DNA of 64,000 nt, taken from NCBI RefSeq assembly GCF_000092245.1, contig NC_014166.1:372001-436000 (forward strand), in the 5' to 3' direction. This document shows positions 4,837-27,779 of this stretch, piece by piece. A program made the position numbers and the translations under genes. The notes beneath the pieces are model-generated. The model was not told where the DNA came from. It was given only the letters and a program-made list of their open reading frames with translations, and did not search any database. Each line of letters opens with the position of its first letter. Within the stretch, counting starts at the first letter, position 1. The DNA is from Arcobacter nitrofigilis DSM 7299 (GTDB lineage Bacteria; Campylobacterota; Campylobacteria; Campylobacterales; Arcobacteraceae).

Positions 4837-4867
4837 TTAAGACTTTTTCTTATGAAAGAAGTCTTAA
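4837..4867 (-). terminator. Hairpin overlapping the flagellin-like stop codon
   Basis: Perfect 9-bp arms (TTAAGACTT / AAGTCTTAA) are separated by 13 nt and flank the stop codon. No T-run follows on the minus strand, so it may stabilise the mRNA end rather than terminate transcription. Confidence 0.45.
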
Positions 4868-5689
4868 TACTGATTGTTGATTTATATTATTAGCTTGTGA
4901 TTGTCCAAAAGAACCAATTTGAGCTAAAATATTTTGTTTAGAGAAACTTGATACTTCTTTAGCAAAATCTACATTTGAAATAGTAGATAGGGCTGAACTG
5001 TTATTTACAACTTGTGCTGACATTGAAGTATATGAAGATTCTAATTGTTGTGCAGTAGAACCAATATCACTTCTAAAATCTTGAAGTTTCGCAGATGCTT
5101 GATCAATAGTATCTAAGAATGTTCTGGCATCATCAGCTGAAAATGTACCGTCTTGTAAAAATCCATCTAATCCTAAACCTTGGGTATTAGATTGAAGTGG
5201 ATTAAGGGAAGTACTATCTTGAGAATCAGTACCTGTTTGAGCATCAAAAGTATTACTTTCACCTTTGTCATCTTGATTTTTTTGTAAAATAGAATTATCA
5301 CCATAACTTGTACTTGAAGCAATGTTATCAAACTGTTCTAAAAGTTTAGAAATATCATTTCTAATAATATTTCTTTGATCATCACTTGTAGTATCTGTTG
5401 CTGCTTGTAAAGTTTTTTCTCTAATTGTATTTAAAATATCTGATTGCTCACCTAGCGCACTATCTCCTATTTGTAAATAAGATAAAGCACTATTGATATT
5501 TTGAACACCTTGTGTTAATCCACTTTGTTCATAATTTAATTGATCGGAAATAGCTAAAAGTGCAGGATCATCTGATGCTTTTGTTAATTCTTTATTTGTT
5601 GCAATCTTTTCTAAAGGATTGCTTGACCTAACTCCTTGAAGCTCTTCTGGTACATATAAATAATTGCTGTAATCATTTGATATAGTCAT
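4850..5689 (-). CDS. Flagellin-like protein
   Basis: 279 residues with flagellin D0/D1 features at both ends. The N-terminal part has LTKASDDPALLAISDQL and the coiled-coil-forming INSALSYLQIGDSALGEQSDILNTIRE; the C-terminal part has NVDFAKEVSSFSKQNILAQIGSFGQSQANN. The short middle (about residues 135-190) replaces a variable domain. The canonical start (MRINTN-like) is absent, so it is probably a minor or divergent filament protein. Flagellins export through the flagellar type III apparatus without a cleaved signal. The ribosome site AAGGAG lies 6 nt before the ATG. No other flagellar gene is in this window. Confidence 0.85.
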   Translation of the reverse strand: MTISNDYSNYLYVPEELQGVRSSNPLEKIATNKELTKASDDPALLAISDQLNYEQSGLTQGVQNINSALSYLQIGDSALGEQSDILNTIREKTLQAATDTTSDDQRNIIRNDISKLLEQFDNIASSTSYGDNSILQKNQDDKGESNTFDAQTGTDSQDSTSLNPLQSNTQGLGLDGFLQDGTFSADDARTFLDTIDQASAKLQDFRSDIGSTAQQLESSYTSMSAQVVNNSSALSTISNVDFAKEVSSFSKQNILAQIGSFGQSQANNINQQSVLRLLS

Positions 5690-5768: not shown

Positions 5769-5812
5769 GTTTTGTTAACCTTTTGTTAACCTTTGGTTGT
5801 TTCATAGTTAAC
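5769..5812. repeat. Four phased 11-bp repeats built on GTTAAC
   Basis: Four consecutive 11-bp units: GTTTTGTTAAC, CTTTTGTTAAC, CTTTGGTTGTT (degenerate) and TCATAGTTAAC. The GTTAAC cores start at 5774, 5785 and 5807, which is exactly one and then two helical turns apart. They sit between the divergent flagellin-like gene and the small-RNA promoter; the last core lies between that promoter's -35 and -10. This is typical of a cooperative operator array. A TTAAC-N5-GTTAA pair inside it resembles, with one extra spacer base, the C. jejuni NssR box as I recall it (TTAAC-N4-GTTAA). Confidence 0.65.
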
Positions 5813-5828
5813 TCAATAATTGTATAAT
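5801..5828 (+). promoter_or_regulatory. Promoter of the putative small RNA
   Basis: A consensus TATAAT at 5823-5828 and a 4-of-6 match to TTGACA (TTCATA, 5801-5806) are separated by 16 bp. Transcription would begin near 5836. Confidence 0.6.
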
Positions 5829-5835
5829 TTTTTTA

Positions 5836-5948
5836 TAAGTAAATAGGAAGCGCGAACACTAGGCTTGTTTACTAAGATTAAAGTTCTCCTTGAAATAAAA
5901 TTAAATCAGTTAAAAAAGGCACGCTAAAGGGTTAGGTGCCTTTTTTTA
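5836..5948 (+). ncRNA. Putative small RNA of about 110 nt
   Basis: A strong promoter box upstream and a textbook intrinsic terminator downstream enclose about 110 nt with no open reading frame. The RNA contains TTCTCCTTGAA, whose CTCCTT core is complementary to Shine-Dalgarno sequences, including the AAGGAGA before the divergent flagellin-like gene. I could not match it to 4.5S, 6S, tmRNA or RNase P RNA. Alternatively it is a long leader of truD with a transcription attenuator. The exact 5' end is estimated. Confidence 0.55.
5914..5948 (+). terminator. Intrinsic terminator of the putative small RNA
   Basis: Arms AAAAAGGCAC and GTGCCTTTTT with a 13-nt loop are followed by a seven-T run, on the plus strand, about 65 bp before truD. 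Confidence 0.85.
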
Positions 5949-6014
5949 TGTCTAAAATCTTTTTAAATCAATGATAATTTGGGTATTATGTCAAAATTAT
6001 TAAAAAGGTTAGAG

Positions 6015-7013
6015 ATGAAAAGAGTTTTTTTACAAAATTATAAACCCCTAGAATTTAAGTTCTATCAAAATATTGATGATTTTGTTGTTACTGAAAATCC
6101 AATAAATTTTACAAATAGAGGTAATTTTATAATTTTAAAAATAGAAAAAGAGAGATTAGGAACTTGGGATTTAATTGATTCACTTGCTAGAAATCTAAAT
6201 ATATATGATAATGAAATAGGTTATGCTGGATTAAAAGATAAAAATGCAACTACTACTCAACACATATCAATACCTAGAAAATATGCAAAAGATATAAAAA
6301 AATTCAAACATCCAAAAATAAAAATATTAGAAACTTATTTACACAGTACAAAACTAAATATCGGCGATTTGATTGGGAATTCATTTGAAATAAATCTTCA
6401 TGAAGTTGAATCTTGTGATGTGGGTATTATAGAAAAAAGATTACATGAACTTGCAAAAAATGGTATGCCAAACTTCTTTGGTTATCAAAGATTTGGTAAA
6501 GATGTAAAAGAGAACCTTGAAAAAGCAAATAAAATTATCTATGGCGATTTAAAAATAAGAGATAGAAAGCTAGAAAAGATGTTAATCTCGATTTATCAAA
6601 GTGATTTATTTAATAAGTGGCTTGCCAAAAGAGTTGAAATGTCTGATGGAAAATTTAAATTACTTGATGGTGAAGTTATGAAATCACTTGATGACTTGAA
6701 GTTCTTTACTCCAAATAAAATAAATGAAAAGATAATAAAAGACTTTGAAGACAAAAAAATAGTTCCTACTGGACTTTTATGTGGAAGAGAAGTTTATCGA
6801 GCAAGAAATGAAGCACAACTTATTGAAAAAGAGTTTGATGATACTTATATTCAAGAAAAAGGCTTAAGAAGAGATGCTATTATTTTTCCAAAAGATATTT
6901 TTGTAAATTATGATGTTGAAAATAAAAAGTGCAAACTAAAATTCACACTTCCAAAAGCTTCATATGCTACGGTTGTAGTTGAGAATATAGCAAATCAAAA
7001 TCTAAGAGTTTAA
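6015..7013 (+). CDS. truD: tRNA pseudouridine(13) synthase TruD
   Basis: 332 residues from the chosen ATG. TruD converts U13 of tRNA-Glu to pseudouridine. The family block containing the catalytic aspartate is clear (GYAGLKDKNATTTQHISIP, near residue 70), as is FFGYQRFGKD further on. This start is preferred over an in-frame TTG 12 codons upstream because AAAAGG sits 6 nt before it and the protein then begins MKRVFLQNY. It is preceded by the small RNA/attenuator region, and its 3' end overlaps the convergent kinase gene by 12 bp. Confidence 0.93.
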   Translation: MKRVFLQNYKPLEFKFYQNIDDFVVTENPINFTNRGNFIILKIEKERLGTWDLIDSLARNLNIYDNEIGYAGLKDKNATTTQHISIPRKYAKDIKKFKHPKIKILETYLHSTKLNIGDLIGNSFEINLHEVESCDVGIIEKRLHELAKNGMPNFFGYQRFGKDVKENLEKANKIIYGDLKIRDRKLEKMLISIYQSDLFNKWLAKRVEMSDGKFKLLDGEVMKSLDDLKFFTPNKINEKIIKDFEDKKIVPTGLLCGREVYRARNEAQLIEKEFDDTYIQEKGLRRDAIIFPKDIFVNYDVENKKCKLKFTLPKASYATVVVENIANQNLRV

Positions 7014-26480: not shown

Positions 26481-27779
26481 ATGAATAAATTTATATTATC
26501 AATTATAGTTTTAGTTATTTCACTAAATTTTTTACATGCTGATGTAAAAGCAGATAAAAAAGAAGAACAAAGTAGATTTGAATCATTGTCTAAATTAACA
26601 AATGTTATTGGCACTGTTGAAAAATATTATGTAGATGATCTAAAATTACAACAAATCGTAGATAAGGCATTAAAAGGTTTAATGCAAGAATTGGATGCAC
26701 ATTCAACATATATGGATAAAAAATATTTCAAAGAGATGCAAATCCAAACTGATGGTGAATTTGGGGGATTAGGAATTACTGTTGGAATGAGAGATGGAGC
26801 ATTGACTGTTATCTCACCAATTGATGGAACACCTGCATTTGAAGCTGGAGTTAAATCAGAAGATATTATATTAAAAATTGATGATAAATCAACATTAAAT
26901 ATGAGTTTAGACGAAGCTGTTAGTCTAATGCGTGGAAAACCAAAAACATCAATAACATTGACTGTTGTTAGAAAAGATGTGAGAAAACCTTTAGAAATAA
27001 AAATTGTAAGAGACATCATCAAAATTGAATCTGTAAAAGCAAAAACTATTGGAAAAGATATTTTATACCTAAGAGTTACAAGTTTTGACAAAAATGTTGT
27101 AGATGGATTAACTAAAGCAATTAAAGATGCAAAAGGTATTAAAGGAATTATTTTAGACTTAAGAAATAATCCAGGTGGACTATTAACTCAAGCAATAGGA
27201 ACAACTGATTTATTTGTAGACAAAGGAATCATTGTCTCACAAAAAGGTAGAGATGATTCAAGTGAAGAAACTTTTAATGCAAACTATTCAAAAACATTGA
27301 CAAGAGTTCCTTTAATTGTCCTTGTAAATGGTGGTAGTGCATCTGCTTCAGAAATCGTAAGTGGTGCTTTACAAGATCATAAAAGAGCAATTTTAGTTGG
27401 AGAAAAAACTTTTGGAAAAGGTTCTGTTCAAGTTGTATTACCAATTACTGCTGATAAGAGTGAAGCTATTAAATTAACTATTGCAAAATATTACTTACCA
27501 AGTGGAAGAACAATTCAAGCAACAGGTATTACTCCTGATGTAATTGCATATCCAGGAGAAGCTGTAAAAGCACCAGATATGGATTTCATGATAAAAGAAG
27601 CTGATTTGAAAAAACACTTAAAAAGTGAATTAGAAAAAGTTGATGGAAAAGATAAAGACGTAAAAAAAGAAACTAAAAAAGATGATAAAAAAATCATCAC
27701 AGATGAAGAGTTATTTAAAGACAATCAGTTAAAAACTGGTGTTGATATATTAAAAAGTTTAATAATTATTAACAAATAA
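26481..27779 (+). CDS. ctpA: C-terminal processing protease CtpA (S41 family)
   Basis: 432 residues. Signal peptide (MNKFILSIIVLVISLNFLHA), then a helical domain, a PDZ domain (GGLGITVGMRDGALTVISPIDGTPAFEAGVKSED) and the tail-specific protease core. The catalytic serine lies in NGGSASASEIVSGAL and the general-base lysine in GEKTFGKGSVQVV. A lysine-rich acidic tail ends the protein. It cleaves periplasmic proteins from exposed C-termini. It begins the transcript leading into the purine genes. Confidence 0.94.
   Translation: MNKFILSIIVLVISLNFLHADVKADKKEEQSRFESLSKLTNVIGTVEKYYVDDLKLQQIVDKALKGLMQELDAHSTYMDKKYFKEMQIQTDGEFGGLGITVGMRDGALTVISPIDGTPAFEAGVKSEDIILKIDDKSTLNMSLDEAVSLMRGKPKTSITLTVVRKDVRKPLEIKIVRDIIKIESVKAKTIGKDILYLRVTSFDKNVVDGLTKAIKDAKGIKGIILDLRNNPGGLLTQAIGTTDLFVDKGIIVSQKGRDDSSEETFNANYSKTLTRVPLIVLVNGGSASASEIVSGALQDHKRAILVGEKTFGKGSVQVVLPITADKSEAIKLTIAKYYLPSGRTIQATGITPDVIAYPGEAVKAPDMDFMIKEADLKKHLKSELEKVDGKDKDVKKETKKDDKKIITDEELFKDNQLKTGVDILKSLIIINK

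Follow-up and report, generated by a model that had tools for sequence, protein, structure and literature searches.

The window analyzed here, a 64,000-nucleotide (64-kb) stretch of the Arcobacter nitrofigilis DSM 7299 genome, contains a predicted small-RNA gene between a flagellin-like gene and truD, and the promoter of this RNA carries an array of GTTAAC-type hexamers. The features of the locus, in window positions, are:

4850..5689, minus strand: flagellin-like gene (279 amino acids, Flagellin_N and Flagellin_C domains), probably outside the regulon
5774..5779, plus strand: array unit 1, GTTAAC, at about -61 to -56 of the predicted RNA start; RTT..C is conserved in 34 of 34 collected RNA promoters
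5785..5790, plus strand: array unit 2, GTTAAC, at about -50 to -45; all 34 collected RNA promoters have RTTAA[C/T] here
5796..5801, plus strand: array unit 3, GTTGTT, degenerate, at about -39 to -34; relatives conserve only RTT
5807..5812, plus strand: array unit 4, GTTAAC, at about -28 to -23; it ends 10 bp before the -10 box
5823..5828, plus strand: -10 box TATAAT of the small-RNA promoter, N10 from unit 4, a spacing that is fixed in relatives
5835..5947, plus strand: predicted small RNA of 113 nt, its start inferred from the -10 box and its end from the terminator
5838..5873, plus strand: 5' hairpin of the small RNA, predicted by folding, with GCGCGAAC (5850-5857) in its apical part
5884..5892, plus strand: CU-rich stretch TTCTCCTTG, single-stranded according to folding, with complementarity to Shine-Dalgarno sequences
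5912..5947, plus strand: intrinsic terminator hairpin AAAAAAGGCAC...GTGCCTTTTTTT followed by a T run, from sequence and folding
5997..7013, plus strand: truD, downstream neighbour of the small RNA, outside the system

As the initial annotation had described, four consecutive 11-bp units, one of them degenerate, follow one another with an exact 11-bp period (5774, 5785, 5796, where the sequence is GTTGTT, and 5807). The distance that it gave to the flagellin-like gene, 80-123 bp, is likewise correct, the array occupying 5769-5812 and the minus-strand start codon lying at 5689. By itself the hexamer GTTAAC shows no excess, the window having 8 sites where 15 are expected; the spaced triple GTTAAC-N5-GTTAAC-N16-GTTAAC is found once, where base composition predicts about 2e-6 occurrences per 64 kb. 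We scored the window with a 55-column matrix that covers the array and the -10 box and was derived from 36 training sequences. The array obtained 48.4 (the window copy and its two orthologues being among the training sequences), all other sites in the window scored 0 or less, and the best site in 20 Markov-simulated windows scored -8.8.

No Rfam family matched the window small RNA, and a comparison of this RNA with the start regions of the 53 window ORFs revealed no specific target for the CU-rich stretch, which, judging from its sequence, could pair with Shine-Dalgarno sequences in general. According to folding, the window RNA is an atypical copy, having GCGCGAAC in a wider and weaker apical loop than its relatives. 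Elsewhere in the window, Rfam reported a match to the Rickettsia sRNA47 family (27159-27469, minus strand), antisense inside a carboxy-terminal-protease-like gene (26481-27779, plus strand), which probably reflects protein-coding similarity rather than an RNA.

When the genus was searched with the array region, the orthologous place was recovered in all three genomes, along with a second place in each that consists of two tandem RNA genes, both having the identical promoter layout. The sibling promoters of A. nitrofigilis, at 270,370 and 270,575, align with the window promoter without gaps, as do all nine promoters of the three genus genomes from unit 1 through the -10 box. The RNAs of the genus have in common a hairpin loop (AAUGCGAA or AAUACGAA), a UUCUCC stretch and a terminator, and the orthologous RNA lies beside the flagellin-like gene in three genomes of the genus. 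Sibling RNAs under a common box thus number three in the A. nitrofigilis genome, with up to four R1 matches in other genomes.

Beyond the genus, a sequence model spanning the promoter and the beginning of the RNA had matches in 56 of 104 Arcobacteraceae genomes, representing 13 of 20 genera, and each of the 27 model-found loci that were read out shows the gap-free layout. In 34 distinct RNA promoters, RTT is invariant at all four units and TTAA is invariant in unit 2. Since RTT is present at every unit of every promoter and unit 3 varies freely in its right half, the array is a direct rather than an inverted repeat. It also has tandem half-sites with an 11-bp period, as in operators of the OmpR/PhoB family. 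The conserved loci had been gathered with a model, and pattern searches therefore serve as clean controls. The exact pattern RTTAAC-N5-RTTAAY-N5-RTT-N8-RTTWAY-N10-TAYAAT, drawn from some of the genomes searched, gave 93 matches (counted as listed rows) in 52 of the 104 Arcobacteraceae genomes; a reversed and a 10-bp-spaced pattern, both having its composition, gave none in the same 104 genomes. The exact pattern is missing from some Arcobacteraceae genomes, and some genera have no match at all. With the 11-bp period kept across genomes of the family and the 10-bp variant absent, the reading of the initial annotation as a helically phased, putatively protein-binding array of the small-RNA promoter is supported, and the alignment of relatives that it had proposed as a check shows the periodicity kept gap-free in Arcobacteraceae loci.

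A scan of 84,980 prokaryote species, one genome each, with the exact pattern yielded 91 stretches. Among the matches listed (80 of the 91), 74 belong to Campylobacterota, as judged by record title and gene content. These 74 loci, again among the matches listed, comprise 18 before htrA, 23 before a regulator-kinase operon (of which, in one truncated case, just the leader is visible), 24 before Arcobacter-type RNAs, and 9 that are leaders or RNAs of Sulfurovum-like genomes. In the 3.2-Mb A. nitrofigilis genome, only three sites reach E <1e-8. Two box-model matches that lie inside coding sequence (1,267,722 and 721,774) were dropped as chance.

The RNAs themselves share sequence features. Across 65 RNA-class sites, the window RNA among them, the count of GCGAA was 62 compared with 7.3 in dinucleotide shuffles, and that of CTCC was 52 compared with 9.0; the family has a repeated single-stranded pairing motif, a feature of LhrC/OmrAB-type RNAs. 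Exposure of the loop was assessed as a per-hairpin stem count against shuffled flanks, and 52 of 66 distinct occurrences of a GCGAA-type motif were located in hairpin loops on stems of 6 or more pairs (11.5 with shuffled flanks). The closing stems are of 27 different kinds, which, together with the loop excess over shuffles, points to conservation of the loop amid changing stems. RNAalifold detected no covariation in a mixed set of two-hairpin RNAs, the alignment of which mixed length classes. No description of these RNAs or of the operator was found in the literature searched, which did not extend to the bulk of subscription articles or to the principal study of CprRS; the RNA family appears to be undescribed.

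Using a promoter-only model, we also found boxes before htrA, the gene of a Do-family protease. RTT at four steps and the -10 box in place are kept at 43 of 50 inspected htrA loci, about 30-40 bp before the start codon. In A. nitrofigilis, htrA (its product matches TIGR02037) is followed by genes for an OmpR-type regulator of 219 amino acids and an ArsS-family kinase (NF038389, 423 bits). The placement of regulator and kinase directly behind htrA, as in the CprRS regulon, is seen in this genome and in other genera, and by gene order membership in a CprRS regulon is likely. The htrA promoter of A. nitrofigilis itself has a degenerate box, in which unit 2 is out of register by a single base (score -5.1), so the link to htrA rests on relatives. 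In Sulfurovum-like genomes, htrA and the regulator-kinase operon lie apart, and a box precedes each.

Among the matches listed, the box precedes the regulator's own operon (htrA-regulator-kinase or regulator-kinase) at 30 regulator-bearing loci. When compared with 30 of the 49 OmpR-type regulators that A. nitrofigilis encodes, the regulators behind the box at all 30 of these listed loci have the htrA-linked regulator as their best match (58-81% identity) and the 662-kb paralogue as their next-best (about 45-52%). The array is therefore most likely the binding site of the htrA-linked regulator. The genome is unusually rich in OmpR-type DNA-binding domains, with 49 matches in 3.2 Mb, two of them in the window (at about 17344 and 59922).

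The Sulfurovum-like genomes offer several further observations. A strongly conserved, CUCC-rich leader separates the box from the regulator-kinase operon (ATTGAACTCCTTTGAAATATACTCCCTTGATAGAACATATTTAGACC; L203, L206, L211, L213, L220, L224 and similar loci), and htrA leaders in these genomes are also CUCC-rich; such leaders may be RNAs in their own right. At six loci (L207, L208, L240, L247, L264, L273) the box stands before apparent stand-alone transcripts that have no gene close behind, start near GAAAGAT, end near ATCTTTC and contain several CUCC motifs. At two of the nine Sulfurovum-like leader/RNA loci (L257, L274) a gene for a TlpA-like periplasmic thioredoxin, a further envelope target, lies behind the box.

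The initial annotation had also suggested that the array coordinates the RNA with the flagellin-like gene, and the divergent arrangement of the two is indeed what a bidirectional control region governing both would have. On the minus strand, RTT recurs at four 11-bp steps in two of the three species of the genus, and flagellin, RNA and truD stay together in Arcobacter sp. EP1, a member of another genus, where a flagellin-like gene with 49% identity, the small RNA and truD follow in the same order (L227 5566-7999). However, the array scores only -16.8 toward the flagellin-like gene with the 55-column matrix, compared with 48.4 toward the RNA, there is no minus-strand -10 box at N10, and the third species of the genus no longer has minus-strand units 3 and 4. 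The RNA is located elsewhere in most genomes, a flagellin-like neighbour of RNA loci occurring only in the genus and in the one further genome, L227. Pairing of the window RNA with the start region of the flagellin-like gene is not notable either (rank 43 of the 53 window ORFs). Given the low minus-strand score, the missing -10 box, the lost units and the restricted neighbourhood, the flagellin neighbourhood looks incidental and the proposed coordination is not supported. We regard bidirectional control as very unlikely, regulation of the flagellin-like gene from such a distance being possible.

Which protein reads the array is a question to which other answers can be given. Another OmpR-type regulator of the same genome might use it, namely the paralogue encoded in a CpxP-like operon at 662 kb or that in an EptA...Spy-like operon at 3,180 kb. 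RTTAAC half-sites are common to the three systems: immediately ahead of each of these operons stands RTTAAC-N5-GTTAAC, two of only seven one-mismatch sites in the genome, which makes use by a paralogue or cross-talk possible, and in another family a box precedes a Spy-like/regulator/kinase operon (L139/L179). Yet these two promoters match the box partially (E 0.16-0.19) and have other distances to the -10 box, and the regulators behind the full box in other species, 30 of 30 among the matches listed, resemble the htrA-linked regulator most, not a paralogue; we therefore consider this assignment unlikely. The two operons are worth describing in their own right. At 3,180 kb (G000:C1:3180429, L015 3430-10482), RTTAAC-N5-GTTAAC and a -10-like TAAAAT precede an operon that begins with an EptA-type phosphoethanolamine transferase and also encodes a PAP2 phosphatase, DgkA, cytochromes, a Spy/CpxP-like protein, an OmpR-type regulator and an ArsS-family kinase. 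At 662 kb (G000:C1:662671, L016 3672-5975), genes for a small secreted protein, an OmpR-type regulator and an ArsS-family kinase are preceded by a comparable half-box, whose distance to the -10 box exceeds that of the RNA promoters by roughly one turn of the helix.

Considerably less probable is a role for the essential orphan regulator HsrA/HP1043/CosR. Its motif, TTTAAG-N5-TTTAAG on the coding strand with 11 bp between centres, has a similar geometry, and cncR1 is among its targets (PMC5253667, PMC8345958). In A. nitrofigilis the HsrA-like regulator gene adjoins a promoter of the form ATTAAC-N5-ATTAAT-N10-TAGAAT (G000:C1:596520, L092 about 1510-1560), which serves a PpiC/SurA-like periplasmic isomerase gene divergent from the HsrA/CosR-like gene. 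The half-site of the array, however, is RTTAAC/Y rather than TTTAAG, there are four units rather than two, and the box precedes a different regulator orthogroup. Because GTTAAC is palindromic, one pair of units also reads TTAAC-N5-GTTAA, from which the initial annotation drew a likeness to the box of NssR, a CRP/FNR-family protein; NssR, which is not a response regulator, was reported in a 2026 paper to bind the C. jejuni htrA promoter (PMC13189099). Binding of NssR, or of any other dimer that reads inverted TTAAC...GTTAA arms, strikes us as hardly credible: the NssR motif is TTAAC-N4-GTTAA (PMC1274295), placing units 10 bp apart, a layout with no match in the 104 genomes compared with 93 for the 11-bp layout, and unit 3 keeps only its left RTT, as expected of a direct repeat. 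The tie to NssR is thus largely refuted by spacing. The array could finally be the ordinary T-rich periodicity of Campylobacterota sigma-70 promoters that have no -35 box, since a periodic signal is present in C. jejuni promoters at -7, -17, -27 and -38 (PMC3847290). That signal reflects base composition, and its reported extent stops at -38; the array, by contrast, extends to about -61, has fixed G/C positions, has only three sites at E <1e-8 in the genome and precedes one regulon. Plain promoter periodicity is refuted as a full explanation, and we give it next to no weight.

We consider it likely that the array as a whole is an operator through which the htrA-linked, CprR/CpxR-like envelope-stress response regulator activates the small RNA, a reading drawn from comparative sequence analysis. 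Envelope stress, presumed to be the stimulus by analogy with CpxRA and CprRS, would activate the regulator, and two dimers would then bind head-to-tail along a single helical face, each to two of the four half-sites that begin with RTT (one dimer on units 1 and 2, the other on units 3 and 4), next to the promoter. The bound dimers would recruit sigma-70 RNA polymerase to the -10 box fixed 10 bp downstream. Campylobacterota promoters lack a -35 element (PMC3847290), and as the four units end 10 bp before the -10 box, the dimers may replace this missing element, which predicts activation rather than repression. The target would be the window RNA, together with the two tandem siblings elsewhere in the genome under the same operator. 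By exposing GCGAA-type loops and a CU-rich anti-Shine-Dalgarno stretch, these RNAs probably keep envelope or surface mRNAs from being translated, and HtrA would be raised by the same regulator. Several hairpins of the RNAs, with the terminator among them in some copies, show one and the same GCGAA loop. Instead of ordinary antisense regulators, the RNAs might therefore be multi-hairpin decoys that titrate an RNA-binding protein much as CsrB/RsmZ do, but by another loop code. Envelope stress would, under the decoy reading, release a titrating RNA; we think this rather doubtful.

If the regulator is assigned correctly, the envelope-stress response of Arcobacteraceae and Sulfurovum-like organisms would gain a precise, searchable operator tied to htrA and one regulator orthogroup, as well as an RNA arm like those in E. 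coli and Listeria. To our knowledge, Hfq is said to be missing in several members of Campylobacterota. With a repeated, structured GCGAA loop in these RNAs, small-RNA action in the phylum becomes testable.

Several known systems resemble this one in part. In E. coli, CpxR activates the periplasmic protease gene degP/htrA and its own operon, and CpxP/Spy-like proteins are encoded nearby. The link between regulator and htrA, and the CpxP/Spy-like proteins near regulators, are similar here; however, the kinase belongs to the ArsS family rather than being CpxA, and the half-site differs from the E. coli CpxR box, GTAAA-N5-GTAAA. In C. jejuni, cprR-cprS adjoin htrA, and the htrA-regulator-kinase order found here is like that arrangement, a likeness of gene order. 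We know of no RNA targets of CprR and of no four-unit box. The C. jejuni CprRS system, with its essential regulator CprR, exerts its action at the cell envelope (PMC7887314).

Regulators of the OmpR/PhoB family read tandem hexamers spaced by 11 bp in a head-to-tail orientation. One of them, PmrA of Enterobacteriaceae, binds as a head-to-tail dimer to hexamer half-sites (CTTAAG/XTTAAT) five bp apart and reads CTTAAT/CCTAAG in this way (PMC3973317). The 11-bp geometry and the TTAA core are common to both boxes, but the array has RTTAAC, four units instead of two and a fixed N10 to the -10 box, and is found in another phylum and before another regulon. The HP1043/HsrA box and cncR1 of H. pylori are similar in having 11-bp-spaced direct hexamers, sigma-70 promoters and a small RNA as a target, and different in having TTTAAG half-sites, two units and a phosphorylation-independent orphan regulator. 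The C. jejuni NssR box has the TTAAC and GTTAA arms, but differs in its N4 spacer and inverted symmetry. Multicopy tandem RNAs under a putative OmpR-family envelope-stress regulator recall LhrC1-5/LisRK of Listeria and OmrA/OmrB/OmpR of E. coli. In LhrC, a C-rich motif recurs in the two loops as well as in the single-stranded part (PMC4132741); the RNAs described here are unrelated in sequence to LhrC and OmrA/OmrB, having GCGAA as the loop motif and the CU-rich stretch outside the loops. On sequence grounds, we thus rate the array and its RNAs as representing a known kind of system, a response-regulator box driving multicopy stress RNAs.
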